Part shown: positions 40,728 to 57,783 of the stretch, piece after piece | Layout: each line of letters begins with the position of its first letter | Numbering within the stretch: the first letter of the stretch is position 1 | DNA from: Mesorhizobium sp. WSM4313 | Lineage (GTDB): Bacteria; Pseudomonadota; Alphaproteobacteria; Rhizobiales; Rhizobiaceae | NCBI RefSeq assembly: GCF_002294725.1 | Contig: NZ_NSFT01000007.1 | Span: 124,001 to 188,000 of the forward strand | Direction of reading: 5' to 3' | Length of the DNA: 64,000 nucleotides | The notes under the pieces: model-generated | Told to the model about the DNA's origin: nothing | The model's database searches: none | Seen by the model: only the letters and a program-made list of their open reading frames with translations | Translations under genes and position numbers: made by a program

Positions 40728-40773
40728 CTTCAGGCGCATCGTCGTGCATGGGCTGAGGAGGAGGAGCCTCGAC

Positions 40774-41865: not shown

Positions 41866-41866
41866 C

Positions 41867-42802: not shown

Positions 42803-43647
42803 GGGCTCCAACCATTTCCATCAAGGGACGCGCATTCGGCGACCGCGTCTTGCTGGCTCTGGTCATCCTGCTTTCCCTGGTCATGGTCGCGCCGGTTCTG
42901 TGGGTTATCGGCCTGTCGCTCAAGGAAAATGCCGAGCTGATGGCAAATCCGAATTCGGTGTTTCAGGCGCCCTATACGCTCAAGAACTACATCAACACCA
43001 TCGGCACCTCGTCGGTGTTCGTCTGGGTGCGCAACAGCATCATCGTCTCCGGAGGATTGACGCTCGGAACGCTGATCCTGTCATCGCTTGCCGGCTATGG
43101 CTTTGCACGGCTGAATTTCCCCGGCCGAAACGTCCTGTTCGTGATCGTCCTCTTCGGCCTGGCAGTTCCGGAACAGGCCGTGCTTGTCGCCCGCCATCAG
43201 ATCTTCAGCATGCTGAACTTCCACAACACCTATCACGGGCTCATTCTCCCGGGCCTGTCGGCTTCTTTCGGCGTCTTCCTGATGACCCAGTATTTCAAGG
43301 CCATCCCGAAGGAGCTGGACGAAGCCGCCATGCTGGACAATGCCAGCCGGTTCAGGACGTTCTGGAAGGTTCTTTTGCCGCTCACGGTGCCCGCTCAGGC
43401 AACTCTCGGCATCTTCACCTTCCTCGGCGCGTGGAACGATTACTTGTGGCCGCTGATCTCGGCAACCAAGAAGGATATGTACACGCTGACGGTCGGCATG
43501 GCCTCGACACAGACCAATTTCGCCCAGTCGGAAGGCATCGGCTTCTTGATGGCGCAGGCGGTGTTCGCCGGCGCGCCGATCCTGATCGTCTACCTGTTTT
43601 TCCAGAAATACATCGTCACGGCCGTCTCGGGCGCCGCGGTGCGATGA
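42799..43647 (+). CDS. CUT1 sugar ABC transporter, permease 2 (MalG-like)
   Basis: A 282-residue permease with the EAA loop PKELDEAAMLDNASRFRTFWKVLLPLTVPAQ near residue 175 and a hydrophobic C-terminal helix. It is translationally coupled to permease 1 through ATGA. It forms the heterodimeric channel for the binding protein encoded next. Confidence 0.9.
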   Translation: MRAPTISIKGRAFGDRVLLALVILLSLVMVAPVLWVIGLSLKENAELMANPNSVFQAPYTLKNYINTIGTSSVFVWVRNSIIVSGGLTLGTLILSSLAGYGFARLNFPGRNVLFVIVLFGLAVPEQAVLVARHQIFSMLNFHNTYHGLILPGLSASFGVFLMTQYFKAIPKELDEAAMLDNASRFRTFWKVLLPLTVPAQATLGIFTFLGAWNDYLWPLISATKKDMYTLTVGMASTQTNFAQSEGIGFLMAQAVFAGAPILIVYLFFQKYIVTAVSGAAVR

Positions 43648-43736
43648 CGAGATTGCCTGACGGCGGGCGTCGCAAGCGATTGAAGCATGAAGCCAGTCCA
43701 GCGTGGAGTGGCGCAGACTCAGGAGGAGGAACTGAT

Positions 43737-45056
43737 ATGAAAATGAAGAAAGTCCTGTTTGCAGCGGTCTCGGCGGGCGTGCTGATGCTCGCAAGCCCGA
43801 GCCTTGCAGCGACGGAATTGACGGTGCAGCGGTTTTTCGGTGCCTGCGATGCCGATTTCGGCACCAACACCGATGTCGCCAAGGCAGTAGGCGAATGCGG
43901 CATCATCACCTCGCTGATCAACAAGTTCAACGCCGACAACCCCGACGTTCACGTCAGCGTCAGCACTGTGGAATGGCCGGGCTATGACCAGCTGACCGCA
44001 CAGTTTGCTTCGGGCGAGGCTCCCGACATCGTCACGATTCATGAATCCGCGCTTTCGGATTACCAGTCCAAGGGGCTGTTGATGCCGCTTGACGATCTGT
44101 TGAAGTCCGTCGGCGTCACACCCGATTCCTTCACAGACGCGGCGCGCAACGGCGCCACCAAGGACGGCAAGATCTATGGCCTGCCGATCGACAGCTGGAC
44201 GATGCTCTATCACATCAACATGGATCTCTTCAAACAGGCTGGCCTCGTCAATGCCGACGGCACGCCGATCCTTCCGACGTCGCCCGAGGAACTGCTCGCC
44301 CAGGCCGAACAGTTCAAGCAGAAGACCGGCAAGCCCTACTTCGTTCAGAACTTGGCCAATGAGACCGCGCTCTACACGCGCAATCTCTACACCTATCTCT
44401 TCCAACAGAATTCCGATTTCTTCGCCGATCCAAAGCATGTGAAGCTGAACACGCCGGAAGCCAAGAAGGTCGTCGAAATGTACAAGGCGATCTTCGACAA
44501 GGACTACACCACCAAGGACCTCGACTACGGCGGCGCCATCAACGCCTTCCTTGCCGGTGGAGGTGGCGTGCAGCTCAACGGCACGTGGGTCGTCGGCGAC
44601 AACAACGCCCAGTCCGAAACCAAGGGCACGGCCCTCAACAAGGGCGGCTATGCAGTCTACCCGTATCCGCAGCTATTTGCCGGCGCCCACGCGCAATATG
44701 CCGACGGCCACACCTGGGCAGTCTCGCAGAAGGACCGCACACCCGAACAGACCGCGGCTATCGGCAAGTTCCTGAAGTTCTTCGCCGACCATGACTTCGA
44801 TTGGTCGCGCACAGGCCACCTGCCGGCCTACAAAGCGATCATCGCCTCGGACGCCTTCAAGGCGCTGCCGCATCGCAACACCATCGCCGCGGTCGCCGAT
44901 CTCGGCAGACCGCTGCCGTCCGCGGTACAGCGCCAGTTCGCGATCCAGGACATCGTGGGCGAAGAGATGAGCGCTGCAATCACCGGCCAGAAGGACGTCG
45001 ATGCCGCACTTGCCGACATGGAAAGCCGCGTCAACGAATTGCTCGCCAACATTTGA
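43737..45056 (+). CDS. CUT1 sugar ABC transporter, binding protein
   Basis: A 439-residue SBP_bac_1 protein. The Sec signal MKMKKVLFAAVSAGVLMLASPSLAA is cut near residue 25; the mature part begins TELTVQRFFGACDADFG, with two cysteines (ACDAD, GECG) that may form a disulfide. QFASGEAPDIVTIHESALSDYQSKGLLMPLDDLL is the usual sugar-binding segment. The AGGAGGAGGA site is very strong, as expected for an abundant periplasmic protein. It is last in the abfA operon and followed by a terminator-like hairpin. Confidence 0.92.
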   Translation: MKMKKVLFAAVSAGVLMLASPSLAATELTVQRFFGACDADFGTNTDVAKAVGECGIITSLINKFNADNPDVHVSVSTVEWPGYDQLTAQFASGEAPDIVTIHESALSDYQSKGLLMPLDDLLKSVGVTPDSFTDAARNGATKDGKIYGLPIDSWTMLYHINMDLFKQAGLVNADGTPILPTSPEELLAQAEQFKQKTGKPYFVQNLANETALYTRNLYTYLFQQNSDFFADPKHVKLNTPEAKKVVEMYKAIFDKDYTTKDLDYGGAINAFLAGGGGVQLNGTWVVGDNNAQSETKGTALNKGGYAVYPYPQLFAGAHAQYADGHTWAVSQKDRTPEQTAAIGKFLKFFADHDFDWSRTGHLPAYKAIIASDAFKALPHRNTIAAVADLGRPLPSAVQRQFAIQDIVGEEMSAAITGQKDVDAALADMESRVNELLANI

Positions 45057-45082
45057 CCGCAGGTCTCTCGGAAACGCTCTCG

Positions 45083-45116
45083 ATGCCCGCGGCTGAAGGC
45101 CGTCGCGGGCATTCTT
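45083..45116 (+). terminator. Terminator-like hairpin after the abfA-transporter operon
   Basis: ATGCCCGCG (45083-45091) pairs with CGCGGGCAT (45104-45112), with further pairing inside the 12-base loop, and is followed by TCTT. It lies between the convergent binding-protein and GntR genes. Confidence 0.6.
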
Positions 45117-45158
45117 GGTCAATGAAGCAGCACCGCATCTTCGGACCGTTCGCAAATT

Positions 45159-45851
45159 TCAGGCCACGTCCCGCCGAATTGGCTTGCGATCATCAGCCGC
45201 GAACACCGCGCTCGCCTCGCTGACGATAGAGACATGGTCCCTGGCGGCCTTGCCCGCAGCCACGCTGTCTCCGCGCATGATTGCGGTGACGATCAGGTCG
45301 TGTTCCTGCCAGGATTTGGCCAGCCGTCCGGGCAGCATGAACTGGGCGCGGCGGAAGGGTGCCAACCGGCTGCGGGTCATCACGGTGAGTTCGTGGATAT
45401 GCGCATTGTGGGCGCCACGATAAAGCCGGCTATGGAATTCGGTGTTGAAATACTCATAGTCCTCCTCGGCGCCCAGCTGCACCATCCGCGCCGAAGCCTG
45501 GTGTTCGATCTCGAGCCCGCGACGCTCGCTGCTGGTCATGCGCTCGGCCGAGAAGCTCGCGCAGATCGCTTCCAGCTCGGCCATGCTCTCGAACATCGAG
45601 GCGAGATGTTCCTGCGTCACGACGGCAACGATAGCGCCTCTGTTGGGCCGCCTCTCGACCAGGCCCATGGCGCTGAGCTGGCCGAGCGCCTCCCTGACAG
45701 GGGTGCGTGATACTTCGAAGCGAGCGGCGAGCGAGGTCTCGTCCAGCTTTTCGCCCGGGCGCAGGTAGCCGGTGACGATCCGATCGCCGATCGCCCGGAC
45801 CATCTGATCCACGGTCGTGCCCGACCTGATCAAGCTGCGCTTCCCCGACAA
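45159..45851 (-). CDS. GntR-family regulator with FCD domain
   Basis: A 230-residue FadR-subfamily regulator. The winged helix lies at residues 12-78 (AIGDRIVTGYLRPGEKLDETSLAARFEVSRTPVREALGQLSAMGLVE), and the FCD domain at about 90-215 has the usual E/D and His residues for metal-assisted ligand binding (EFHSRLYRGAHN, HDLIVTAI). It is divergent from the BMP-transporter/biuret operon across 276 bases and is the likely repressor. The ligand may be a ureide or its breakdown product. Confidence 0.9.
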   Translation of the reverse strand: MSGKRSLIRSGTTVDQMVRAIGDRIVTGYLRPGEKLDETSLAARFEVSRTPVREALGQLSAMGLVERRPNRGAIVAVVTQEHLASMFESMAELEAICASFSAERMTSSERRGLEIEHQASARMVQLGAEEDYEYFNTEFHSRLYRGAHNAHIHELTVMTRSRLAPFRRAQFMLPGRLAKSWQEHDLIVTAIMRGDSVAAGKAARDHVSIVSEASAVFAADDRKPIRRDVA

Positions 45852-45966
45852 TTTTCCTCCGTCGCGTCTTCTCGTGGAGTCGGCCGACTCATTGGCCCTC
45901 CGACTCGGATATGCCCTCTATGCCTCTATTTTAATCTGCCTGTCAAACTGGCTACTTTCGAGGCAA

Positions 45967-46073
45967 AAAGTGCATGCAATTGCCTCCGGCATAGGCATAA
46001 GCGTTCGAGCTGGTGGCTGATTTTATTGAATAAATTTCAAGACACAAACTGGCACGGCGGTTGCATGCACTTT
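45967..46073. promoter_or_regulatory. Paired GntR operator candidates upstream of the ureide operon
   Basis: AAAGTGCATGCAA (45967-45979) and its exact reverse complement TTGCATGCACTTT (46061-46073) are 81 bases apart. Each contains the perfect palindrome TGCATGCA, a plausible FCD-GntR site. They flank the AT-rich middle of the divergent intergenic region, where both promoters should lie. Confidence 0.6.
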
Positions 46074-46127
46074 CTTGGACGGCATGTTAACCGACCCGGA
46101 AAAGGGTCCCAAAGGGGAGCATTCACT

Positions 46128-47255
46128 ATGACCGACAGATTCATGCTTAACCGCCGCCAACTGCTCAAGACCTCAGCCGCGGGAGCCGCGCTCGGCCTCG
46201 CCTCGGCATCCTTTCCAATCAGCCGTGCCTTCGCCGCCGCCGCCACTGTCGGCTTCATCTATGTCGGCCCGAAGGACGACTATGGCTACAACCAGGCGCA
46301 TGCCGAGGGGGCGGCCGCGCTGAAGGGCATCGAAGGCATCTCCGTCGTCGAGGAGGAAAACGTTCCCGAGACGGTCGACGTCCAGAAGACGATGGAATCG
46401 ATGATTAACCTCGACGGCGCTTCGCTGATCTTCCCAACCTCCTTCGGCTATTTCGATCCGCACATGCTGGCCATGTGCGCGAAATTCCCCGACGTGCAGT
46501 TTCGCCATTGCGGCGGCATGTGGGACAAGGCCAAGCACCCGATGAATGCCGGCTCCTATTTCGGCTATATCGGCATGGGCCAGTACCTGAACGGCGTCGT
46601 CGCCGGCCACACATCGAAGTCGAAGAAGCTCGGTTTCGTCGCCGCCAAGCCCATTCCGCAGGTGCTGCTCAACATCAACTCCTTCCTGCTCGGCGCGCGC
46701 TCGGTCGATCCGTCGATCACCTGCCAGGTCATCTTCACCGGCGAATGGTCGCTGGCGGTGAAGGAAGCGGAAGCCACCAACGCGCTGGTCGACCAGGGCG
46801 CCGACGTCATCACCTGCCATGTCGACAGCCCGAAAGTGGTGGTCGAGACGGCCGCGGGCCGCGGCGCCTTCGTCTGTGGCTACCACGCCAACCAGAGCCC
46901 GCTGGCGCCGGAAAAATACCTCACCGGCGCCGAGTGGAACTGGGCGAAGGTCTATAAGATGTTCGTCGACGACCTCATCGCCGGCACGCCGCTGCCCAAT
47001 TTCACCCGCGGCGGACTGGCCGACGGCTTCGTCAAGATGAGCCCGCTCGGTCCCGCCGTCGGCGAGCCGGCCCGCAAGCAATTCGACGCCACCCTGGCCG
47101 AAATGATGAAGGGCGGCTTCTCCGTCATCAAGGGCCCGCTGAAGAGCAACAAGGGCGCTGTCGTGGCGACGGAAGGCCAAGCCTTCGTCGAGACCGCCAT
47201 CGAGCTCGAAAGCATGGACTATCTCGTCGAGGGTGTCGTCGGCTCGACCGCCTGA
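46128..47255 (+). CDS. BMP-family ABC transporter, binding protein
   Basis: A 375-residue BMP (PnrA/Med-like) lipoprotein-family substrate-binding protein. The N-terminus LNRRQLLKTSAAGAALGLASASFPISRAFAA is a twin-arginine signal. GFIYVGPKDDYGYNQAHAEG is the typical first strand and ligand loop, and SGYFDPHMLAMCAKFPDVQF-like sequence (here SFGYFDPHML) follows. BMP systems usually import nucleosides, but the gene here heads an operon for biuret/allophanate breakdown, so a ureide ligand is inferred. GGGGAG lies upstream of the ATG at 46128. Confidence 0.88.
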   Translation: MTDRFMLNRRQLLKTSAAGAALGLASASFPISRAFAAAATVGFIYVGPKDDYGYNQAHAEGAAALKGIEGISVVEEENVPETVDVQKTMESMINLDGASLIFPTSFGYFDPHMLAMCAKFPDVQFRHCGGMWDKAKHPMNAGSYFGYIGMGQYLNGVVAGHTSKSKKLGFVAAKPIPQVLLNINSFLLGARSVDPSITCQVIFTGEWSLAVKEAEATNALVDQGADVITCHVDSPKVVVETAAGRGAFVCGYHANQSPLAPEKYLTGAEWNWAKVYKMFVDDLIAGTPLPNFTRGGLADGFVKMSPLGPAVGEPARKQFDATLAEMMKGGFSVIKGPLKSNKGAVVATEGQAFVETAIELESMDYLVEGVVGSTA

Positions 47256-47276
47256 AGCCGAGCGGAGACGGGGACC

Positions 47277-48401
47277 ATGACCAATACGGTCAGCAGTGCG
47301 GAGGCGCCGGCCCTGCTCGGCGCCAAGGGATATCCGGCGGCGCTGGCATGGATCGCGCGGCGGGCGGAAGCTTTCGTCATTCCGCTCGCGGCTCTTGTCG
47401 TCGGCATGGCGCTGTTCAGCCTGTTCATCGCCCTGGTCGGCAAGTCCCCGGTCCTGCTTTACGAGACCATGTGGCGGGGCGGCTTCGGCTCGTGGTTCTC
47501 CATCCAGAATTCGCTGTCGCGGGCCGCGCCGCTGCTGCTGGCGGCGCTGTGCGTGGCACTGCCGGCGCGGCTCGGCCTCGTCGTCATCGGCGGCGAGGGC
47601 GCCATCGTGCTCGGTGGCGTCAGCGCCGCTGCCATAGGCGTGGCGCTGGGCGGCGCGCCTTCCTTCATCGTCATTCTTGCCATGGGCGTGGCGGGCCTGG
47701 CCGCCGGCGGCATCTGGATCGGTGCCGTCGGCGCGCTCCGCCACTACCGGGCCGTTAACGAGACCATTTCCAGCCTGCTGATGGCCTACATCGCCATCGC
47801 CGTGATGAACCAGCTGGTGGAAGGGCCGCTGCGCGACCCGGCCTCGCTCAACAAGCCCTCGACCCAGCCGCTCGCCGACATCTACCGCATCGGCAACATT
47901 CCGGGCATGGAGGTGCATTGGGGGCTTGCCGTCGGCGTCGTCGCCTGCGTGCTCTCCTGGGTGCTGATCGAAAAGACCCGCTGGGGCTTTGCCGCTCGCA
48001 TCGCCGGCGGCAATGTCAGGGCAGCGCAGGTGCAGGGGCTGGCCGTCGGGCCGCTCATCGTCGGCTTTACCGCGCTTGCGGGCGGCTTTGCCGGTCTTGC
48101 CGGCATGCTGGAAGTCGCAGCCGTGCAAGGCAGCGCCAACGGCTCGCTCGCCGCCGGCTATGGCTACACCGGCATCCTCGTCGCCTTCCTCGCCCGCCAC
48201 AACCCACTGGCCATCATCCCTGTCGCCATCCTGCTCGGCGGCATCGACGCATCCGGCGGGCTGATCCAGCGCCGCATGGACCTGCCCGACGCCACCGTGC
48301 TGGTGCTGCAAGGCATGCTGTTCATCGTCATCCTGCTCAGCGAAACCTTGTACGGCCGCTTCAAGGCCTTCAATCCCGATTTGTGGCGGAGGGCCTCGTG
48401 A
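47277..48401 (+). CDS. BMP-type ABC transporter, permease 1
   Basis: A 374-residue BPD_transp_2 permease. ISSLLMAYIAIAVMNQLVEGPLRDP and GFTALAGGFAGLAGMLEVAAVQGSANGSLAAGYGYTGI are the conserved cytoplasmic and membrane motifs of the nucleoside-type permeases. It begins 21 bases after the binding-protein stop; its stop shares one base with the next start (TGATG). Confidence 0.9.
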   Translation: MTNTVSSAEAPALLGAKGYPAALAWIARRAEAFVIPLAALVVGMALFSLFIALVGKSPVLLYETMWRGGFGSWFSIQNSLSRAAPLLLAALCVALPARLGLVVIGGEGAIVLGGVSAAAIGVALGGAPSFIVILAMGVAGLAAGGIWIGAVGALRHYRAVNETISSLLMAYIAIAVMNQLVEGPLRDPASLNKPSTQPLADIYRIGNIPGMEVHWGLAVGVVACVLSWVLIEKTRWGFAARIAGGNVRAAQVQGLAVGPLIVGFTALAGGFAGLAGMLEVAAVQGSANGSLAAGYGYTGILVAFLARHNPLAIIPVAILLGGIDASGGLIQRRMDLPDATVLVLQGMLFIVILLSETLYGRFKAFNPDLWRRAS

Positions 48402-49327
48402 TGGATGCGACCGGGATCGGCCTCTGGGGCGTGCCGCTCGCCATCCTCGGCGGCGCGATCCGCGTGTCGACGCCCTTCATCTTCGTTTCGCTGGGCGAGG
48501 CCATCACCGAGCGCTCCGGCCGCATCAATCTGGGGCTGGAAGGCACGCTCGTCTTCGGCGCCATGACCGCATATGCGGTCGCGGTCATGACCAACTCGCC
48601 ATGGCTCGGCCTGCTGGCCGCCGCGGCCGCCGGCCTTTGCTTCGGCCTGTTCCATGGCTGGATCTGCAAATTCCCGAAAGTCAACGACATCGCCATCGGC
48701 ATCGCGCTGATGCTGTTCGGCTCGGGGCTCGCCTTCTTCTTCGGCAAGCCGTTCATCAAGCCGAAAGCGCCCAATCTTCCGGCCATTCCCTTCGGCGCCT
48801 GGTCCGACATTCCGCAGGTGCAGGCGGCACTCGACGTTAACGTCCTGTTCCTGATCGGTGCGGTGCTTTCGCTGGTCCTGTGGTGGGCGTTCCGCAACAC
48901 CCGCGCCGGCCTCATCGTGCGCGTCGTCGGCGACAGTTCCGATGCCGCGCGCGCCATGGGCCTCAACCCGAACACAGTGCGCCTCATCGCCACCGGCGTC
49001 GGCGGCGCGCTGGCCGGCATCGGCGGCGCCTATCTGTCGCTCTACTATCCCGGCAGCTGGACCGAGCGCATCTCGTCCGGTCAGGGGCTGATGGCCGTGG
49101 CGCTGGTCATCTTCGCGCACTGGAATCCGCTCGGCTGCTTTGCCGCCGCGCTTCTGTTCGGCGGCGCCGGAGCGCTCGGACCCGCGCTGCAGTCGGTCGG
49201 CGTCACGCAGGGCTACTATTTGTTCTACGCCGCCCCCTACATCCTCACCCTCATCATCATGATCGCCACCTCGTCGCCGACACGCTCGCTAGCGGGCGCG
49301 CCGGGCGAATTGTCGATCACCAGATAG
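48401..49327 (+). CDS. BMP-type ABC transporter, permease 2
   Basis: A 308-residue permease with [28 protein letters not shown] near the N-terminus and [45 protein letters not shown], a strong family signature. The ATG at 48401 overlaps the previous stop; a GTG at 48398 is possible. It pairs with permease 1. Confidence 0.9.
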
Positions 49328-49341
49328 CTGGAGTTTTTGCC

Positions 49342-50043
49342 ATGAACGCCAGAGCCGAAATCACCCAGCGCTATATCGACGCCGACCCGTATCCGTGGCC
49401 TTACAATGGCGAGCTTCGCCCCGACAACACGGCGTTGATCGTCATCGACATGCAGACCGATTTCTGCGGGCCGGGCGGCTATGTCGATCATATGGGATAC
49501 GACCTGTCGCTGGTGCGCGCACCGATCGAGCCTATCAAGTCGGTGCTGTCGGCCATGCGCGCGAAAGGCTACACCATCATCCACACCCGCGAGGGCCACC
49601 GCCCCGACCTCGCCGATCTGCCCGCCAACAAGCGTTGGCGCTCGCGCCGCATCAATGCCGGCATCGGCGATCCCGGCCCCTGCGGGCGCATCCTGGTGCG
49701 CGGCGAGCCGGGCTGGGACATCATTCCCGACCTCTACCCGGCCGAGGGCGAGCCGATCATCGACAAGCCCGGCAAGGGCTCGTTCTGCGCCACCGACCTG
49801 GAGCTGATCCTCAACCAGCGCGGCATCGAGAACATCGTGCTCACCGGCATCACCACCGATGTCTGCGTGCACACCACCATGCGCGAGGCCAACGACCGCG
49901 GCTTCGAATGCGTGATGCTGGAGGACTGCTGCGGCGCGACCGACTACGGCAATCATCTTGCCGCGATCAAGATGATCAAGATGCAGGGCGGCGTCTTTGG
50001 CGCGGTGTCGAGCTCGGCGTCCTTCGTCGCCCAGCTGCCGTAA
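49342..50043 (+). CDS. biuH: Biuret amidohydrolase BiuH
   Basis: A 233-residue isochorismatase-like cysteine hydrolase. The catalytic triad falls at exactly D36 (VIDMQTDF), K142 (IIDKPGKG) and C175 ([17 protein letters not shown]), the residue numbers known for Rhizobium leguminosarum BiuH, and the N-terminal [22 protein letters not shown] matches that enzyme type. It hydrolyses biuret to allophanate and ammonia in the cytoplasm. It sits inside the operon between the transporter's permease and ATPase genes, which ties uptake to hydrolysis. Allophanate is then handled by the hydrolase encoded at 52594. Confidence 0.9.
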
Positions 50044-50053
50044 GGAAACCAGG

Positions 50054-51586
50054 ATGAGCGCGATCACCGGCAACAAGGCCGTCGGCGTCGAGACCATCGG
50101 CATGTCCATGCGTTTCGGCGCCTTCACGGCGTTGGGCGACGTCTCGATCAAGGTGCCAGCCGGATCGTTCCACGCGCTGCTTGGCGAAAACGGCGCCGGC
50201 AAGTCGACGCTGGTCAAATGCATGATGGGTTTTTATCACCCGACCGCCGGCGACATCCTCATCGAGGGTCGCGAGGTGGCGATCGCCAGCCCCAGGGACG
50301 CCTCGGCGCTCGGCCTCGGCATGGTCTACCAGCATTTCACGCTTGTCCCCTCGCTCACCGGCGCCGAGAATCTGGTCATTTCGCGTGAGAAGGTTCCCGG
50401 CGTGATCGACTGGCGCAAGGAGCGCGGCGAGCTTGCAAAGTTCATGGATCGAATGCCGTTCAAGCTGCCGCTCGACGTCAAGGTGGCCGAGCTCGCTGCC
50501 GGCGAGAAGCAGAAGCTGGAGATCATCAAGCAGCTTTATCTCGGCCGCTCCTTCCTCGTGCTGGACGAGCCGACCTCCGTGCTCACCCCCGGCGAGGCGC
50601 AGGAAGTGCTTGGCCTGGTGCGCGCCATGACCAGGGCCGGCGCCCTGACGGTGCTGATGATCTCGCACAAATTCCACGAGGTGACGGCATTCGCCGACGA
50701 CGTCAGCGTGCTGCGCAAGGGCAGGCTGACCGGCACTGGCCGCGTCGTCGACCTCGACCGCAAGGCCATGGCGGCGATGATGATCGGCGACCAGCCGATC
50801 GCGGTCCTCGACAGCCGCGCCGAGCCCAGGCCGGACGCCGAGATCGTCCTCGAGGTCAAGGCGCTGAAGGCGCCGGACCGCACCGGGCTGAAGTCGATCC
50901 GGATCGAGGATCTCGGCGTGCGCGCCGGCGAGATTGTCGGCATCGCCGGCATCTCCGGCAACGGCCAGAAGGAATTGCTCGAAGTGCTGGCCGGGCAGCG
51001 CCCCCGCGATGCCGGCGAAATCATGGTGCGCGGCGCCGCCTATGCGGCAACGCGGGCCGAGGCGCGCGCTCTCAACGTGCGGCTCATTCCCGAGGAGCCG
51101 CTGAAGAATGCCTGCGCGCCGAAAATGACGGTGGCCGAAAACATTTCTTTCCGCACCTTCGACATCGACGGCAACGGCAAACCGGTGAGCTGGATCAGTG
51201 CCGGCGCCATCAGGGCATTCAGCGCCAGGCTGGTCGAGCAGTTCAAGGTCAAGACCGCATCGCTTGCCTCGCCGATCGCCTCGCTGTCGGGCGGCAATGT
51301 GCAGCGCGCCGTGCTTGCCCGCGAGCTCACCGGCAAGGTCGACCTTCTGATCGTCTCCAACCCGTGCTTCGGCCTCGACTTCTCGGCCGTGGCCGAAATC
51401 CGCGCCCGCATCATGCAGGCGCGCAATGCCGGTGCCGCCGTGCTTCTGATGTCGGAGGATCTCGACGAACTGCTCGAGCTCTCGGACCGCATCTTCGTCA
51501 TGTCGGACGGTGCGCTGGTCTACGAGACGCCGATTGCGCAGGCCAGTGTCCAGACTATCGGCGAGCACATGGCGGGACATCACTAA
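50054..51586 (+). CDS. BMP-type ABC transporter, double ATPase
   Basis: A 510-residue protein with two cassettes. The first has Walker A GENGAGKST near residues 47-55, signature region ELAAGEKQKLEI and DEPTSVLTP. The second has the usual degenerate Walker A (GISGNGQKE), SLSGGNVQRAVLAREL and LLIVSNPCFGLD in place of DEPTRGLD, as in other BMP systems. The ATG at 50054 is preceded by AAGGA. It begins 10 bases after biuH and shares one base with the next start (TAATG). Confidence 0.9.
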   Translation: MSAITGNKAVGVETIGMSMRFGAFTALGDVSIKVPAGSFHALLGENGAGKSTLVKCMMGFYHPTAGDILIEGREVAIASPRDASALGLGMVYQHFTLVPSLTGAENLVISREKVPGVIDWRKERGELAKFMDRMPFKLPLDVKVAELAAGEKQKLEIIKQLYLGRSFLVLDEPTSVLTPGEAQEVLGLVRAMTRAGALTVLMISHKFHEVTAFADDVSVLRKGRLTGTGRVVDLDRKAMAAMMIGDQPIAVLDSRAEPRPDAEIVLEVKALKAPDRTGLKSIRIEDLGVRAGEIVGIAGISGNGQKELLEVLAGQRPRDAGEIMVRGAAYAATRAEARALNVRLIPEEPLKNACAPKMTVAENISFRTFDIDGNGKPVSWISAGAIRAFSARLVEQFKVKTASLASPIASLSGGNVQRAVLARELTGKVDLLIVSNPCFGLDFSAVAEIRARIMQARNAGAAVLLMSEDLDELLELSDRIFVMSDGALVYETPIAQASVQTIGEHMAGHH

Positions 51587-52254
51587 TGGCGGAAATCGCA
51601 GCGCAGCCATTTCCGTTCGCCTTCAAGCCGCGGACCATGGCGCTGGTCGTCATCGACATGCAACGCGACTTCGCCGAGCCCGGCGGCTTCGGCGCCAGCC
51701 TCGGCAATGACGTCAGCCGGGTGACCGCGATCGTGCCGACGGTGAAGCGGTTGATCGACGGCTTTCGCGCCGCCGGCCTTCCGGTGATCCACACGATGGA
51801 GTGCCACCGGCCCGACCTTTCCGACCTGCCGCCGGCCAAGCGCAATCGCGGCAATCCGTCGGTTCGTATAGGCGATGCCGGGCCGATGGGCCGCGTGCTG
51901 ATCGTCGGCGAGCCGGGCACCGCGATCCTCGACGAGCTTGCGCCGCTGCCCGGCGAGATCGTCATCGAGAAGCCAGGCAAGGGCGCCTTCTATGCGACCT
52001 CCTTCGGCGATGACCTGAAAAGGCTCGGCGCCGAGCAGCTCGTCTTTGCCGGCGTCACCACCGAAGTCTGCGTGCAGACGACGATGCGCGAGGCCAACGA
52101 TCGCGGCTATGAGTGCCTGCTCGCCGAGGACGCCACGGAAAGTTATTTTCCCGAGTTCAAGGCGGCGGCGATCGCCATGATCAGGGCGCAGGGCGCCGTC
52201 GTCGGCTGGACGGCGACGACCGACCAGGTGCTCGAGGGAATTGCCAATGCCTAA
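51586..52254 (+). CDS. Isochorismatase-like cysteine hydrolase, possible triuret or ureide hydrolase
   Basis: A 222-residue paralogue of BiuH. The triad is D24 (VVIDMQRDF), K129 (VIEKPGKG) and C162 ([21 protein letters not shown]). It shares HRPDLSDLPPAKR and the MREAND segment with BiuH but lacks the BiuH N-terminal extension. A second such hydrolase beside BiuH and allophanate hydrolase suggests one more ureide step; triuret to carboxybiuret/biuret is the nearest known reaction. Other ureides or N-carbamoyl compounds are possible. The start overlaps the ATPase stop, and the stop overlaps the next gene by 8 bases, so coupling is tight. Confidence 0.75.
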   Translation: MAEIAAQPFPFAFKPRTMALVVIDMQRDFAEPGGFGASLGNDVSRVTAIVPTVKRLIDGFRAAGLPVIHTMECHRPDLSDLPPAKRNRGNPSVRIGDAGPMGRVLIVGEPGTAILDELAPLPGEIVIEKPGKGAFYATSFGDDLKRLGAEQLVFAGVTTEVCVQTTMREANDRGYECLLAEDATESYFPEFKAAAIAMIRAQGAVVGWTATTDQVLEGIANA

Positions 52255-52597
52255 TCTTGCCTTTGCCGGCCTGCTCGACGGCGGCTGGCGCGACCTGGCG
52301 TTCGAGCCTTTCCGCGACGGCATCGGCGTGCACTGGCTGCTGAAGGGCGGGCCGGTGGAGCCGTCGGTCGCGATCCTGAAATACCGGCCGGGCGCCGGCG
52401 TGCCGCGCCATCGCCATGTCGGGCTGGAGACCATCGTCGTGCTGGAAGGCACCCAGAGCGACGAGAACGGTGACTATCCTGCCGGCAGCGTGATCCTCAA
52501 TCCGGTCGGAACCGAGCATTCGGTGTGGACGAAGGACGGCTGTGTCGTGCTGATCCAATGGGACCTGCCCGTGATCATTCTGGGGGAGACGAAATGA
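52247..52597 (+). CDS. Cupin-domain protein (ChrR-like cupin)
   Basis: A 116-residue single cupin. The motif is ILKYRPGAGVPRHRHVGLETIVVLEGTQSDENGDYPAGSV, with H-x-H and E as metal ligands, followed by NPVGTEHSVWTKDGCVVLIQW. It resembles the cupin half of ChrR-type anti-sigma factors and stand-alone metal-binding cupins that bind or tautomerise small ligands. In this operon it may help the unstable allophanate or carboxylated intermediate, but no activity can be assigned. It overlaps the preceding and following genes. Confidence 0.75.
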   Translation: MPNLAFAGLLDGGWRDLAFEPFRDGIGVHWLLKGGPVEPSVAILKYRPGAGVPRHRHVGLETIVVLEGTQSDENGDYPAGSVILNPVGTEHSVWTKDGCVVLIQWDLPVIILGETK

Positions 52598-54396
52598 GCG
52601 ATGTCCACTTCGACATAGCGAGCCTGCGCGCCGCCTATCGTGGAGGTGTCGGCGTTGGCGATGTGATCGCGGCGATCTATGCCCGCATCGAGGCTGCCGA
52701 CGATCCGGGCATCTTCATCCATCTCGCCTCCAAGGCGGATCTGCTTGCCGCGGCCGAAGCGCTCGGCCCGTTCGACCCGGTGGCAAAACCGCTGTGGGGC
52801 ATTCCCTTCGCCGTCAAGGACAACATCGACGTCGCCGGCATGCCGACGACGGCGGCCTGCGCGCAATACACCTACTGGCCCGACAAGGACGCCACCGTGG
52901 TGGCGCGGCTCAAGGTCGCCGGCGCGCTGGTCGTGGGCAAGACCAATCTCGACCAGTTCGCCACCGGCCTCGTTGGTGTGCGCACGCCCTGGCCGATCCC
53001 GCGCAACGCCATCGACGCGGAGCTGGTGCCGGGCGGCTCCTCGTCCGGGTCGGCGGTGGCGACAGCGCGCGGCATCGTCTCCTTCGCGCTTGGCACCGAC
53101 ACTGCCGGCTCCGGCCGCATCCCGGCCGGCCTCAACAACATCGTCGGGCTGAAGCCGACCGTCGGTGCGTTGTCGACAGGCGGCGTCGTTCCGGCCTGCC
53201 GCACGCTCGACTGCGTGTCGGTGTTCGCGCTGACCGTCGACGACGCTTATGCAGTGTTCTGCGTCGCGGCAGGGCGCGACACGGCCGATCCCTATTCGCG
53301 CGACATCGCCGTCCGGCCGCTCGCCGCGCGCCCGCCTGTGCCGAGCGTCGGCATCCCGGCAAAAGCCGACCGGAAATTCTTCGGCGATGCGGCGATGCAG
53401 GCCGGCTTCGAGGCCTCGCTTGCCATGCTGTCGCGGCTCGGCTGCCGGCTGGTTGAAATCCCGTTCGGCGATTTCTACGCCACCGCCAACCTCCTCTATG
53501 AGGGCGCCTGGGTGGCCGAGCGCTATGCTGCGATCCGCGATTTCATGGAAGCCAACGAAGCCGCCATGCATCCGGTGACGAGCAGAATCATCGGCGGCGC
53601 CAGGAAGTTGTCGGCGGCGGACGCCTTCCGCGGCCTCTATACCTTGCAGGCCTACCGGGCCAAGCTCGCCCCGCTCATCGCCTCGGTCGACCTATTCTGC
53701 GTGCCGACCGCGCCGACGCACTACACCACCGCCGCCGTGCTCGCCGATCCGGTCGAGACCAACAGCCGGCTCGGCACCTACACAAATTTCGTCAACCTGC
53801 TCGACATGTGCGGCATCGCCGTGCCGACCGGCACGCGCGACGACGGCCTGCCGATGAGCGTGACACTGCTTGCGGCCGCCGGACTGGACGGCCTTGTGGC
53901 GTCCATCGCGCGCGATCTCCATGCCGCGAGCGGTCTCACCCTCGGCGCGACCGGCTGGCGCCAGCCGAGCGTGCAGCCTGTCGGCGCGTCGGCCGAAGAC
54001 GGCACGATCGAATTGGTGGTGGTCGGCGCTCACCTCTCGGGAATGCCGCTCAATGGCCAGCTCAAGCAGGCCGGTGCCCGGTTCTGCCGGGCGACGAGGA
54101 CGGCTTCTTCATACAAGCTTTACCAGCTCGCCGGCCAGGCCACGCCCAAGCCCGGACTGGTCCGTGTGGAGAGCGGCGGCACTGCGATCGAGGTAGAGGT
54201 CTGGCGGATGCCTGCCGAGGCCTTCGGCCACTTCGTGGCCGCCATCCCGCCGCCGCTGGGCATTGGCAACATAGAGCTTGACGACGGCAGCAGCGCCAAA
54301 GGCTTCCTGGTGGAATCCGTGGGCTTGCTGGGCGCTTCCGACATCTCGTCATTCGGCGGCTGGCGCCGCTTTCTGTCTGATCGCGTTCCCGTTTGA
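52594..54396 (+). CDS. atzF: Allophanate hydrolase AtzF
   Basis: A 600-residue amidase-signature enzyme with a C-terminal allophanate-hydrolase domain, the AtzF length. The Lys-Ser-Ser triad is K75 (PFAVKDNIDVAG), S149 (GGSSSGS) and S173 (GTDTAGSGRIPAG), with spacing 74 and 24 as in AtzF. It splits allophanate (with its N-carboxyurea product) to ammonia and CO2. The last about 130 residues (LPLNGQLKQAGARF onwards) match the AtzF_C fold. The start overlaps the cupin stop by 4 bases, with GGGGGAG upstream. It completes the ureide operon. Confidence 0.92.
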   Translation: MSDVHFDIASLRAAYRGGVGVGDVIAAIYARIEAADDPGIFIHLASKADLLAAAEALGPFDPVAKPLWGIPFAVKDNIDVAGMPTTAACAQYTYWPDKDATVVARLKVAGALVVGKTNLDQFATGLVGVRTPWPIPRNAIDAELVPGGSSSGSAVATARGIVSFALGTDTAGSGRIPAGLNNIVGLKPTVGALSTGGVVPACRTLDCVSVFALTVDDAYAVFCVAAGRDTADPYSRDIAVRPLAARPPVPSVGIPAKADRKFFGDAAMQAGFEASLAMLSRLGCRLVEIPFGDFYATANLLYEGAWVAERYAAIRDFMEANEAAMHPVTSRIIGGARKLSAADAFRGLYTLQAYRAKLAPLIASVDLFCVPTAPTHYTTAAVLADPVETNSRLGTYTNFVNLLDMCGIAVPTGTRDDGLPMSVTLLAAAGLDGLVASIARDLHAASGLTLGATGWRQPSVQPVGASAEDGTIELVVVGAHLSGMPLNGQLKQAGARFCRATRTASSYKLYQLAGQATPKPGLVRVESGGTAIEVEVWRMPAEAFGHFVAAIPPPLGIGNIELDDGSSAKGFLVESVGLLGASDISSFGGWRRFLSDRVPV

Positions 54397-54481
54397 ATGT
54401 GTCCTCAACGGACTCCGCGAACTGCTTTGCATGGAATCAGTGCCGGGCACGTCCTTCGAACGATGACGAAGAGGGTGCCGC

Positions 54482-55345
54482 TCAACGATTGCTATTATGC
54501 GCTGCTGCCGACAGTCCCGAACCTGACGCGTGCTGATGCCAGACGTCGAGCACCGCGGCAACGATTGCTTCGGGCGCGTCTTCCTGGACGAGGTGCTTGG
54601 CGTTGGCGATAACCGTGAATGACGCGTTTGGAATACGCCTCGCGAGTTCCTCCCCATCCTTCAGCGGGATGAACTCGTCTTCAGCGCCCCACACGATCGT
54701 CACTGGGCAGCGAATCTCGCCATAGCGCCATTCGACCTCTTCGCTGTATTTGTCGTCCATTTGAGCGATCTGGCGCCAGAACGCCTTCTGCCCCTCTTCC
54801 TCAAGCCAGGGATCGAGATAGAGCCGCATCTCCTCCTCAGCCAAAGTGCGCTTGACCGCCGCGCTGATGTACGCGCGCAGCATGGCCTCATGGATATAGG
54901 CGGGCAGTCTGGCGAACACCTCTCCATGCGCTTTCGCCGCTTGCACCAGCGCTGAACCCTGCGGGCTGATCGCGACCGGGTCGATCAATATGAGGCTGCG
55001 GTAGTCGACACCGTCAAGCAAATGCGCACGCAGCGCCACCGAGCCACCGAAGTCATGCGCCACGATATCGGGCTGCTCGGCACCCCAATGGTTTACGAGT
55101 GCCGCGAACAGGCTGTTCTGAGTGCCGTGCAGGACGTCGCCCTCGGGCTTGGTCGAGCGTCCATAGCCGAGCATGTCGTAGTAGAAGACCCGTCGATGCC
55201 GCGCGAGCCATGGCACGATCCGCCGCCATTCGAGCGAAGAGAATGGCGAGCCATGCATGACGACCGCGGGCGGCCCTTCGCCAATGACGCCCCAGGCGAT
55301 CTCATCACCGTTGAAGTCGAACCGCTCGGGCAACTGCCAATCCAT
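54482..55345 (-). CDS. Alpha/beta hydrolase, haloalkane-dehalogenase-like
   Basis: A 287-residue alpha/beta hydrolase. HGSPFSSLEW near residue 31 is the oxyanion-hole segment, the nucleophile is Asp98 in AHDFGGSVA (so dehalogenase or epoxide-hydrolase type, not serine esterase), the acid lies near WGAEDEFIP and the His is in ANAKHLVQEDAPE. Substrate unknown; haloalkane dehalogenase, fluoroacetate dehalogenase and epoxide hydrolase are all possible. It is convergent with atzF. Confidence 0.85.
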   Translation of the reverse strand: MDWQLPERFDFNGDEIAWGVIGEGPPAVVMHGSPFSSLEWRRIVPWLARHRRVFYYDMLGYGRSTKPEGDVLHGTQNSLFAALVNHWGAEQPDIVAHDFGGSVALRAHLLDGVDYRSLILIDPVAISPQGSALVQAAKAHGEVFARLPAYIHEAMLRAYISAAVKRTLAEEEMRLYLDPWLEEEGQKAFWRQIAQMDDKYSEEVEWRYGEIRCPVTIVWGAEDEFIPLKDGEELARRIPNASFTVIANAKHLVQEDAPEAIVAAVLDVWHQHASGSGLSAAAHNSNR

Positions 55346-55575
55346 GGCTTTTCTCCTGATCAGATTTCCACTGGGATCGAAATCACTCGTGCTAGCCAGG
55401 TAGAATCCGGATTACGGCCGTGAACAACGAATGCACGCAGCGCATTCCCCAGCCCGTGCCCGACTGGCACCTTAAGACAGCATCTGCAGCATCCGGCGGC
55501 CATGCATGGCAAATGACCGATGCCATTCACAGGCCGGTGAAATGATCCCGGGACCAGTGATCCAAGCCCCGACTG

Positions 55576-55764
55576 TCAGACGCTCGACGCCGATCTGTCC
55601 GAAATCAGATGGCGCAAGAACCATTGAGCTGCGAGATCCGCGACTTCGTCCAGGGCGCCGGGAGGCAGCGCCAATACGATGACGTCGTCGCGCCCGACAA
55701 AGCGAACGAGTTCCCTGGCCAGTCGCCGTCCGGCCTCGCGGCGATCTGTAAAGATGGCAGCCAT
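55576..55764 (-). pseudogene. N-terminal fragment of a phosphoribosyltransferase-like gene
   Basis: The minus strand encodes about 62 residues beginning MAAIFTDRREAGRRLARELVR, which match the start of small phosphoribosyltransferase-like proteins, and DDVIVLALPPG is a variant of the usual ALPRGG. The frame ends after LRHLISD with no PRPP-binding loop, so it looks like a truncated remnant. No ribosome binding site is evident. Weak but specific similarity. Confidence 0.5.
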
Positions 55765-56008
55765 GACCTTCGATCCGCGTGCATCTGTTTTCCCGGTGGA
55801 TATTCTTTCAGCCTGCGGCCACTCTCGTGGGATGGGCTGCGGCACCGGTATCATTTTGGAACTCGCTGGCTGTCTCGACGTTCCAAGAATAGTTTCGATC
55901 GCGAGGGAGGCGCGTTGGCGCGGATCGAGCAGACCGCGATCCTGTGATCTCGCAATGCGCAGCAGGAGGCGGGTGTGGCGCCTCAGCAATCAGAGAGAGG
56001 AACATCCC

Positions 56009-56437
56009 ATGCAAGTTCAGGAGATCATGTGCCGTCGGACCGAACTGGTCGGCCCGAACACGACGATCAGGGATGCCGCCCGGAAAATGCGGGCCGACAA
56101 TCTCGGCGCCCTTCCGGTCGGCGAGAATGACAGGCTGGTCGGCATGGTGACAGACCGCGACATTGTGATGCGCGGCGTCGCCGAGGAGCGCTCAGCCGGC
56201 AACACGACCGTTCGCGAGGTCATGTCAGAGCATGTCCATTGGTGCTTCGATGACGCCGACATCACCGATGCGGCGAAGATCATGGCCAAGCATCAGGTGC
56301 GTCGTCTTCCGGTGATCAACCGCGACAAGCGTCTCGTCGGCGTCATTGCTCTGGCTGACCTCGGGCGGACCGATGAGGAAGCCGCCAAGATCGCCCTCGA
56401 AGGCATTTCCGAGGCGACGGACGATCCTCGTCGCTAG
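56009..56437 (+). CDS. CBS-domain pair protein
   Basis: A 142-residue protein of two CBS domains (residues about 5-60 with RLVGMVTDRDIVMRG, and 70-125 with VRRLPVINRDKRLVGVIALADL). CBS pairs bind adenosine nucleotides or other ligands and regulate partners; stand-alone ones are often stress-linked in rhizobia. The ATG at 56009 has AGAGAGG upstream. No partner is adjacent. Confidence 0.88.
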   Translation: MQVQEIMCRRTELVGPNTTIRDAARKMRADNLGALPVGENDRLVGMVTDRDIVMRGVAEERSAGNTTVREVMSEHVHWCFDDADITDAAKIMAKHQVRRLPVINRDKRLVGVIALADLGRTDEEAAKIALEGISEATDDPRR

Positions 56438-56542
56438 AGCAATTCCAGGAAAAGTGCGTAGCGGTTTTCCGTCCGCAATTGCGTAAAAACAAAACTTAGA
56501 GCGGTTGGCGATTCCGTGAAACGCTGAACCGCTCTAAACGCT
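56436..56542. repeat. Dispersed repeat (agagcaattccagg type) with dyad
   Basis: AGAGCAATTCCAGGAAAAG at 56436 starts a unit that resembles a common dispersed element of rhizobial intergenic DNA (assigned from memory of the family, not from a search). It continues to the dyad AGAGCGGTT (56498-56506) / AACCGCTCT (56527-56535). It begins at the CBS gene stop and may act as its terminator. The remaining bases up to 56787 show no gene apart from the ribosome binding site of the next one. Confidence 0.65.
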
Positions 56543-56787
56543 CGCCTGAGCGGTTGCTGCCATGCGTTCTCCTCCGTCGGGGCTGAACGTCCCCTGCTCA
56601 GGCAGCCTTCAGTTGGCCACTATCGCGCTTTGACGTCTATGCGGCGTGTCTTGTCCTTTGCAGCGGGATTCTTCGGAAGCTCGACAGCCGACAAGAATGC
56701 GCGTCGGGACATGCCATGGCGGAACAACGGGCCGGCACGCCTGTTTGGTCAATCCACCTAGTCGGATTTGAACGGAAGGAGATTTCG

Positions 56788-57225
56788 ATGAACGCCACCG
56801 GACTCGACGTATTCGACAAGACACTGCAGACCACAAACATCTGGCTCGACGAGATCATGGACGAGATTGGACCGGATCGGCAGGTCGCCTGGCACGTTCT
56901 CGGAGCGGTGCTGCACGCCCTGCGCGACCGTATCCAGCCGGATCTTGCAGCCCACCTCGGCTCGCAATTGCCGATTCTGGTTCGTGGCGCCTTCTATGAC
57001 CGATATCAGCCCTCCAAAGCTCCCGAGAAGGTGCGGTCGCTCGACGAGTTTCTGGCCAAGATCAAGGCGGAGCTTGAGCTCATCCGTCCGCTCGATTCCG
57101 AGGATGCATTCAGGGCCGTGTCCAAGGTGCTTGCCCATCATGTCGAAGAAGGACAGATGCACAAGGTCTGGGACTCCCTGCCAGGAGAGATCAGACGGGT
57201 CGCCGAAGCTCAGCAAGCGGCGTGA
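56788..57225 (+). CDS. DUF2267 protein
   Basis: A 145-residue acidic, helical protein of the DUF2267 family (MDEIGPDRQVAWHVLGAVLHALRDRIQPDLAAHLGSQLPILVRGAFYDRYQP is the signature region). No function is established; the family often sits with CBS, UspA and other stress genes. The ATG at 56788 has AAGGAG 8 bases upstream, and an open frame upstream to 56716 is not similar to the family. Confidence 0.85.
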   Translation: MNATGLDVFDKTLQTTNIWLDEIMDEIGPDRQVAWHVLGAVLHALRDRIQPDLAAHLGSQLPILVRGAFYDRYQPSKAPEKVRSLDEFLAKIKAELELIRPLDSEDAFRAVSKVLAHHVEEGQMHKVWDSLPGEIRRVAEAQQAA

Positions 57226-57273
57226 ACGGCGCCGGCGCGGGTTTCTCGGTCGCAATCTCCTGGGGAAATAGCA

Positions 57274-57744
57274 ATGCCACTCACCCTTATCAGCCCGGCG
57301 TTCCCGGCAGGCGGAAAAATTCCCGAAAAGTACGCGCGCGACGGCCAGAACGTCTCGCCGCCGCTGAAGTGGTCCGGTGTTCCTGACGGGACCAAGAGCC
57401 TTGTTCTAGTCGTGCAGGATCCCGATGCGCCAAGCGGGACGTTCGGGCACTGGGCGGTCTTCAATATCCCGCCGGATGCCGGCGGACTTGCCGAAGCCGA
57501 AGATGGCAAGCCCGGTCCGTCGGCACTCAGGCAAGGCACCAACGATTTCGGCAATGCCAATTACGATGGTCCGCAGCCGCCTGCCGGGCATGGCGTCCAC
57601 CATTACCACTTTCGGCTGGCCGCGCTCGATGTACCGAGCCTCGGCGTACCGGGACAGGCGGGCGTGCATCAGGTCTGGAAGCAAGCCCAGAAACACGCAT
57701 TGCAGGAGACGGAGTTGGTCGGAACCTACGAACGGCCAGCATGA
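57274..57744 (+). CDS. YbhB/YbcL-type phosphatidylethanolamine-binding-like protein
   Basis: A 156-residue PEBP-family protein. FPAGGKIPEKYARDGQNVSPPLKWSGVPDGTKSLVLVVQDPDAP contains the conserved DPDAP and GHWAVFNIP motifs, and HHYHFRLAALD the ligand-pocket HYHF. Bacterial YbhB proteins have no clear role; they bind small anions. It begins 49 bases after the DUF2267 gene and may be co-transcribed. Confidence 0.9.
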   Translation: MPLTLISPAFPAGGKIPEKYARDGQNVSPPLKWSGVPDGTKSLVLVVQDPDAPSGTFGHWAVFNIPPDAGGLAEAEDGKPGPSALRQGTNDFGNANYDGPQPPAGHGVHHYHFRLAALDVPSLGVPGQAGVHQVWKQAQKHALQETELVGTYERPA

Positions 57745-57783
57745 GGTCGGCGGCATTGGTCGCCGCCTTCACAGCTGCCGCTT

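Follow-up and report, generated by a model that had tools for sequence, protein, structure and literature searches.

Which ureide does a rhizobium take up and break down with an operon in which two related hydrolases, an allophanate hydrolase and a small cupin protein stand beside a transporter, and what does the cupin contribute? The question is raised by eight contiguous genes, every one an open frame, at 46128-54396 on the + strand of a 64,000-nucleotide stretch of the Mesorhizobium sp. WSM4313 genome (contig NZ_NSFT01000007.1), the whole of which is called the window here. An earlier note made from this sequence had given the gene order, which stands (BMP-family binding protein, permease 1, permease 2, the biuret hydrolase BiuH, double ATPase, second hydrolase, cupin, AtzF), had proposed dedicated nitrogen scavenging of biuret, triuret or a related ureide, and had left the role of the cupin open. 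It is now considered highly probable that the genes form a self-contained triuret/biuret (oligo-urea) nitrogen-scavenging operon, with ureide import, breakdown by TrtA, cupin, BiuH and AtzF, and control by sigma-54 and a GntR regulator. For the cupin, a specific role is predicted from sequence, that of a carboxybiuret decarboxylase.

The small overlaps and short gaps between the genes described earlier are borne out by coordinates: in gene order, the junctions are a gap of 21 bases, an overlap of 4, gaps of 14 and 10, and overlaps of 1, 8 and 4. The 1-base overlap between the ATPase gene and trtA reads TAATG, with the ATG of TrtA at 51586. The cupin, said before to be translationally tied in, overlaps both trtA (8 bases with its ATG at 52247, or 14 if a TTG at 52241 is used) and atzF (4 bases, with the ATG of AtzF at 52594). 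The Pfam families represented are Bmp, BPD_transp_2 (twice), ABC_tran, Isochorismatase (twice), Cupin_7, and Amidase with AH_C. The identical gene order was found on plasmid pB1-1-8 of Mesorhizobium sp. B1-1-8, and the cupin follows trtA immediately in 79 of the 79 full-core rhizobial operons surveyed below; the arrangement is therefore not chance. Mesorhizobium records hold a TrtA 97% identical to that of the window.

The hydrolases and their substrates

The second hydrolase (51586..52254, +) is very probably the triuret hydrolase TrtA, judging from sequence comparison. Its Asp-Lys-Cys triad D24/K129/C162, numbered from 51586, is present as first read, and it scores 240.5 bits against the BiuH equivalog model, under the cut-off of 370. 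The solved structures that it matches best are 6xix and 6xj4, TrtA of Herbaspirillum sp. BH-1; the match to 6xix has an E value of 5e-84 and 59.5% identity in a printed alignment free of gaps, and identity to the BiuH of the window is 45.2%. The protein matches 14 of the 15 TrtA active-site positions taken from PMC7948467. Six of the seven positions that separate TrtA from BiuH (F35, N41, A134, E160, Y187 and I205, plus Q202) are TrtA-like, and the seventh, 205, has the BiuH residue V. In a tree of 73 rows, it falls with 6xix in a 19-row starred clade (100/95) separate from the BiuH clade. The TrtA reference in searches and alignments was read from 51583, which adds one non-initiator codon before the ATG and is harmless. 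The 6xix match, the tree and the site positions together sharpen the earlier idea of triuret use into a probable identification.

Could the enzyme act mainly on some other ureide, such as formylurea or an N-carbamoyl compound, instead of triuret? Weighing for this are an identity to the characterised TrtA of 59.5%, a V at position 205, which is the BiuH residue, and an active-site fingerprint found not just in the TrtA clade but also in TrtA-like proteins of a sister group, whose gene settings are quite different; the fingerprint alone is therefore not proof of substrate. Formylurea is indeed the best side substrate of TrtA, but at 0.3% of the triuret activity (PMC7948467), and both the 14 matching site residues and the clade membership agree with TrtA, so that this alternative is regarded as very improbable.

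Genes for TrtA-like proteins with an identical set of active-site residues occur at the loci L137, L138, L144-L147, L150 and L151, where stretches of about 16 kb gave no match to the BMP transporter, BiuH or AtzF. On plasmids, 77 of the 281 records with TrtA matches are Escherichia; among these, the gene context was read for one, the conjugative E. coli plasmid CP070395.1 (L126, 8980-16190), on which a TrtA-like hydrolase with the TrtA fingerprint has fdrA, DUF1116, DUF2877, carbamate kinase and cytosine permease genes as neighbours.

The other two hydrolases are placed more simply. BiuH (49342..50043, +) scores 422.8 bits against equivalog model NF050097 (cut-off 370), has R. leguminosarum PDB 6azo as its closest structure (E 3e-141) and is 84.5% identical to the BiuH of strain 3841; D36, K142, K145, C175 and Q215, numbered from 49342, are all present, including the three residues (D36, K142, C175) that had been noted as intact. 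AtzF (52594..54396, +) has Amidase and AH_C domains, reaches 792 bits against TIGR02713 (cut-off 511) and exceeds both allophanate hydrolase cut-offs; the spacing K-74-S-24-S pointed out previously is that of the Lys-Ser-Ser triad K75, S149 and S173. By homology to characterised enzymes, TrtA would take ammonia from triuret to give carboxybiuret, BiuH would turn biuret into allophanate and ammonia, and AtzF would turn allophanate into ammonia and CO2. The step between the first two of these reactions, from carboxybiuret to biuret, is the one for which the cupin is proposed.

The cupin behind trtA

Carboxybiuret, the product of TrtA, has a half-life of about 20 min, and trtB is a decarboxylase gene able to process it (PMC7948467); in the s-triazine pathway, AtzH, a DUF3225 protein, probably decarboxylates 1,3-dicarboxyurea (PMC6219798). 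The DUF3225/HpxZ family was looked for in the window and was not found there; the slot behind trtA holds instead the cupin (52247..52597, +; TTG start at 52241 possible), a free-standing Cupin_7 protein of 116-118 residues. AtzH is taken here to belong to the same family as the HpxZ-like proteins. The putative metal ligands H57, H59, E63 and H93 (counted from 52241) do not vary among the 36 operon cupins compared and are also kept in the 18 operon cupins of a wider alignment, and the residues fit the pattern of a metal-dependent cupin, with two His and a Glu in motif 1 and a His in motif 2. The fold model (pLDDT 89.7) ranks highest with ChrR cupins, uncharacterised cupins and cupin enzymes such as dimethylsulphoniopropionate (DMSP) lyases and dioxygenases; such a ranking points to no single reaction, and gene context is more telling.

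That context was surveyed with the window TrtA as the query throughout, so that distant TrtA are under-represented. The rhizobial set comprised the best 80 of 570 trtA loci by similarity to the window TrtA; the plasmid set, 10 loci, with strain 3841 and B1-1-8 picked for interest or closeness and eight spread over the ranking; and the phylum set, 40 loci from 35 of the 41 matching genomes among 398, the six left out being that of the window, three of its genus, G146 and G186. The combined order and class set comprised 54 loci, with matches in 34 of 399 genomes of the order of G322 (betaproteobacterial by our own reading) and in 25 of 385 of the class Alphaproteobacteria; G588 was left out for its short contig, and G019, G207 and G322 were each counted one time. 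Genes were mapped by tblastn, and classes were assigned manually on the basis of kinship columns and the taxonomy given in the records. Loci without a full core, defined as BMP, two permeases, ATPase, BiuH and TrtA inside the stretch, were dropped (1 of 80 rhizobial, namely the 7,987-base contig L028, 4 of 10 plasmid, 30 of 40 phylum, and 16 of 54 order and class loci), leaving 133 operons, 79 rhizobial and 54 others.

Among these 54 others, the cupin was found in 16, HpxZ/AtzH-like and/or AtzE genes in 25, both in none and neither in 13 (Fisher p 3e-6). In the 28 alphaproteobacterial operons alone, the corresponding counts were 16, 6, 0 and 6 (p 0.0025), and in the 26 of the Beta- and Gammaproteobacteria 0, 19, 0 and 7. 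The link to trtA is also tight from the side of the cupin: across 385 alphaproteobacterial genomes, all 12 matches with E <= 1e-25, the window included, lie directly behind trtA; this is not so for a thirteenth (G1102, E 2e-23), and the alignments of still weaker matches are mostly confined to the cupin core. H143 and H146, considered as cupins away from trtA, were ruled out, since each follows trtA in such an operon, as does G1001.

Two loci are instructive. In the genome G556, close to Herbaspirillum in view of a TrtA 91% identical to 6xix, the order is AtzF-BMP-permeases-BiuH-ATPase-TrtA-HpxZ-GntR, and the slot behind TrtA is thus occupied by an HpxZ/AtzH-like gene, the single HpxZ match in that genome. 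At L125, the arrangement is biuH-cupin-atzF with a divergent AtzD-like gene, 52% identical to the AtzD of strain 3841, and neither trtA nor the BMP transporter was found in its 18.7-kb stretch; AtzD and TrtA have carboxybiuret as a common product (PMC7948467), and the cupin is therefore tied to that compound. Because the cupin follows trtA, does not occur together with AtzH/HpxZ-like or AtzE genes in the 54 other operons, and is swapped for an AtzH-like gene in the Herbaspirillum-like genome, we favour, with some reserve, the reading that it is a carboxybiuret decarboxylase non-homologous to AtzH/TrtB, which would accelerate the formation of biuret.

Several observations pull the other way. 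The presence of the cupin is bound to lineage (16 of 28 alphaproteobacterial against 0 of 26 beta- and gammaproteobacterial operons), and shared ancestry inflates the p values above; in 13 of the 54 operons, the stretch holds no cupin and no HpxZ/AtzE, so that the decarboxylation step may be spontaneous or encoded elsewhere; and the best matches of the cupin in both sequence and fold are ChrR regulatory cupins, from which a regulatory or metal-sensing role is possible. The latter two points would suit a small ChrR-type regulatory or metal-sensing protein without enzyme activity, with carboxybiuret decarboxylating by itself. It fits poorly with 116-118 residues, which leave space for a cupin domain alone, with a gene lying inside a catabolic operon and overlapping trtA and atzF, with the AtzH-like protein that occupies the same slot elsewhere, and with the cupin of L125, which accompanies AtzD-like, BiuH and AtzF genes in the absence of trtA. 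A purely regulatory cupin is accordingly thought unlikely, though by no means negligible, and the decarboxylase is retained as the preferred reading.

In several records, the cupin is labelled 'allophanate hydrolase' (e.g., L125 9690-10055 and CP001077.1 81354-81695), a label that has apparently spread from the neighbouring gene. As for the alternative occupant of the slot, the HpxZ-like genes adjoining trtA in L123, L131 and L132 reach the HpxZ equivalog cut-off. TrtB was reportedly described from a Herbaspirillum strain by Aukema in 2020, and since the Herbaspirillum-like G556 has HpxZ in the slot, TrtB is probably itself an AtzH-like (DUF3225) protein. A GRQMQ/GRQSQ marker tried for separating HpxZ without AtzE from HpxZ with AtzE failed: in the former (n=11), GRQMQ occurs in 5, GRQSQ in 5 and neither in 1, and in the latter (n=20), GRQMQ occurs in 1. 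At L141, L153, L251, L257, L264 and L275, TrtA is found together with AtzE-like and AtzH-like genes, a combination which suggests that carboxybiuret may there be deaminated directly rather than decarboxylated. The abstract of PMC12625717 lists 'atzH' beside trtA and biuH, a name that stands nowhere else in the main text and may or may not be a slip.

Import and control

The operon opens with the BMP-family substrate-binding protein (46128..47255, +), whose TAT_signal score of 21.8 bits is slightly below the cut-off of 22.7, and its transporter is completed by permease 1 (47277..48401), permease 2 (48398..49327) and the double ATPase (50054..51586, ABC_tran in 2 stretches), all on the + strand. 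The family had been introduced as usually linked to nucleosides; this protein is nearer to AtzT than to other BMP proteins of known structure, with AtzT 6pi5 as its best solved relative (E 5e-59) and Brucella 3s99 next. Both relatives are purine-bound, 3s99 with adenine, and AtzT binds guanine and 2-hydroxyatrazine (PMC6834077). At AtzT positions 45, 97, 98, 139, 165, 169, 194, 218 and 220, AtzT reads YSFTENWNN and the window protein YSFQQNWHD (Y54, S105, F106, Q152, Q178, N182, W207, H231, D233). The aromatic sandwich Y54/W207 and S105 are thus retained, and in place of the Glu165 with Asn218/Asn220 of an AtzT-type purine binder, the window protein has Q178, H231 and D233. His and Asp at positions 218 and 220 also occur in 3s99, and only the Gln at position 165, where AtzT has its base-reading Glu, is therefore telling. 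This Gln is found in 49 of the 54 operons, or 49 of the 53 that are readable (L253 is not), and Glu stands there in AtzT, 3s99 and three of four BMP paralogues of the window's own genome (four of five were compared, the weakest, L174, being left out; L172 and L173 gave partial-length matches). Counting against a fixed signature are the Ser of L240 and L243 and the Thr of L246 and L247. When 15 representatives less than 85% identical were compared, 112 of the 337 columns of the mature protein proved invariant, so that invariance alone is weak and what matters is that the type of residue has changed. A structure model of the BMP protein was left unused (mean pLDDT 49.3).

From this pocket, we infer that the transporter imports triuret and/or biuret. 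It might be thought to import mainly purines or s-triazine-derived rings, with triuret and biuret formed from them inside the cell, given the ligands of AtzT (PMC6834077), the AtzD-like genes present in 22 of the 133 full operon loci, and the H231/D233 pair common to the adenine-bound Brucella protein. This seems rather unlikely when set against the eight genes of the window operon, none of which belongs by family to the ring-opening or purine-degrading enzymes, against the exchange of Glu for Gln in nearly all readable operons, and against the pocket being kept in two of three BiuH-only operons (the third, L167, differs). Joined to the preferred role of the cupin, linear ureide import leads to a broader proposal, on which we stand evenly divided: that a metal-dependent cupin decarboxylase independent of AtzH/TrtB (NTF2 fold) replaces these proteins in alphaproteobacterial triuret/cyanuric acid pathways, coupled with a BMP lineage whose purine pocket a nearly fixed exchange of Glu for Gln has remodelled to take linear ureides.

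The earlier note had held that finding the transporter with a different enzyme set in relatives would speak against its proposal. This was seen in part, as relatives add AtzD, formamidase, AtzE or HpxZ; nonetheless, BiuH accompanies the transporter in 133 operons that have TrtA and in 3 that lack it. A nitrilase-type formamidase, not in the window, is present in 52 of the 133 loci (e.g., L009 7668-8684); that of L313 (4004-5016, Rhizobium sp. T136) has no listed product, matches in two pieces in different frames and may be broken. L122, on the Citrobacter freundii plasmid NZ_CP056841.1 from wastewater, has the operon with formamidase and without cupin, and on Klebsiella and Enterobacter plasmids, TrtA matches are listed beside an ABC ATPase gene. 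With the AtzD of strain 3841 as query, no match was returned in G556, G322 or G123, an empty answer which is not proof of absence.

Upstream of the operon, regulation by nitrogen is suggested. Sigma-54 promoters have the consensus TGGCAC-N5-TTGC, with GG and GC elements. The sequence CTGGCACGGCGGTTGCA at 46049..46065 (+), whose end lies 62 bases ahead of the start codon of the BMP gene, agrees at 13 of 13 positions; no other full match occurs in the window, and 100 shuffles gave none. The best score was 13 in 73 and 12 in 6 of the 79 rhizobial operons, and in the other 54, at least 12 in 33, 11 in 11 and 10 or lower, or none, in 10; among 304 tiles of the window, at least 12 was reached in 1 (the site itself) and 11 in 3. 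Two points weaken the case among the 54: 10 lack a good match in the 400 bases searched, and the spacing between site and first gene is highly variable, so that some matches may be chance. A scan for sigma-70 promoters gave 0 sites against 1.1 expected. In Pseudomonas sp. ADP, nitrogen starvation induces the atzDGEHF operon, which likewise depends on sigma-54 (PMC6834077).

A divergent gene for a regulator with Pfam GntR and FCD domains (45159..45851, -), a divergent neighbour in rhizobial relatives also, faces the operon. The motif TTGCATRCACTTT has exactly two occurrences in the 6.33-Mb genome, both between these two units: copy 1, TTGCATGCACTTT, on the - strand at 45967..45979, and copy 2 on the + strand at 46061..46073, over the -12 element. 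Related 9-mers recur in rhizobial intergenic stretches (n=85), TTGCATGCA in 57 and TTGCATACA in 39. We infer that the GntR protein binds both putative operators and would thereby repress the operon; together with sigma-54 transcription, which would respond to nitrogen limitation, this suggests nitrogen-starvation control plus local repression. The sigma-54 match fits the dedicated nitrogen scavenging proposed earlier, which the probable identification of TrtA also supports.

Downstream, an alpha/beta hydrolase gene on the - strand (54482-55345) is absent behind the operon in two annotated relatives and is left out of the unit. Terminator-like sites numbered 4 against 4.7 expected, and an Rfam scan of 40000-60000 returned nothing at gathering cut-offs.

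Known systems and significance

The core of the operon is not new, as the TrtA-BiuH-AtzF pathway was published in 2020 and its association with a BMP transporter in 2025. The operons of Herbaspirillum sp. BH-1 and R. leguminosarum (now johnstonii) 3841 hold the same three hydrolases (PMC7948467), so that the second hydrolase with its triuret use, put forward before as a new point, had already been described. Plasmid pRL10 of strain 3841 has the trtA-cupin junction and BMP transporter of the window; unlike in the window, its operon includes formamidase and AtzD, and the 24.7-kb stretch gave no atzF. The Herbaspirillum-like genome differs by the HpxZ/AtzH-like gene in place of the cupin and by having atzF first. 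The other supposed novelty, enzymes interleaved with a BMP 'nucleoside' transporter, was reported in 2025 in nitrifiers, whose trtA, biuH and atzF lie with bmpA-nupABC (PMC12625717). The transporter family and enzymes are shared with the window, but trtB is named there, and 'cupin' has 0 occurrences in the text of that paper; trtB is present in ammonia-oxidising bacteria (AOB), and comammox clusters lack it and carry allFGHK (PMC12625717). The atzDGEHF/atzRSTUVW system of Pseudomonas sp. ADP resembles the window in the AtzF step, AtzT and sigma-54/nitrogen-starvation control, the last being predicted for the window, and differs in the ring opening of cyanuric acid by AtzD, the AtzEG/AtzH route and the Glu165 of AtzT (PMC6219798, PMC6834077); as described in these papers, it has neither TrtA nor BiuH, both present in the window. 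ChrR-type cupins (PDB 3o14, 2z2s, 2q1z) share the fold and the aligned metal-ligand pattern of the window cupin, which is unlike them in being a free protein in a catabolic operon. The role proposed for the cupin, the BMP Gln signature and the sigma-54/operator pair were not found in print among open-licence papers.

Urea fertiliser contains triuret and biuret as impurities, and a link between triuret and urate oxidation has been drawn (PMC7948467); bacteria in soil and nodules are therefore likely to encounter the two compounds. For a rhizobium, the operon lays out a complete predicted route from import to ammonia with a clear gene list. In trtA genomes without trtB, PMC12625717 leaves the trtB step open, as either an unidentified enzyme or a spontaneous reaction. 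If the cupin is indeed the decarboxylase, it would supply a candidate enzyme type for this step and a new reaction for the cupin fold, and would correct the records in which it is called an allophanate hydrolase. The Glu-to-Gln pocket signature, in turn, would allow 'nucleoside' BMP transporters that carry it to be re-annotated as probable ureide transporters.

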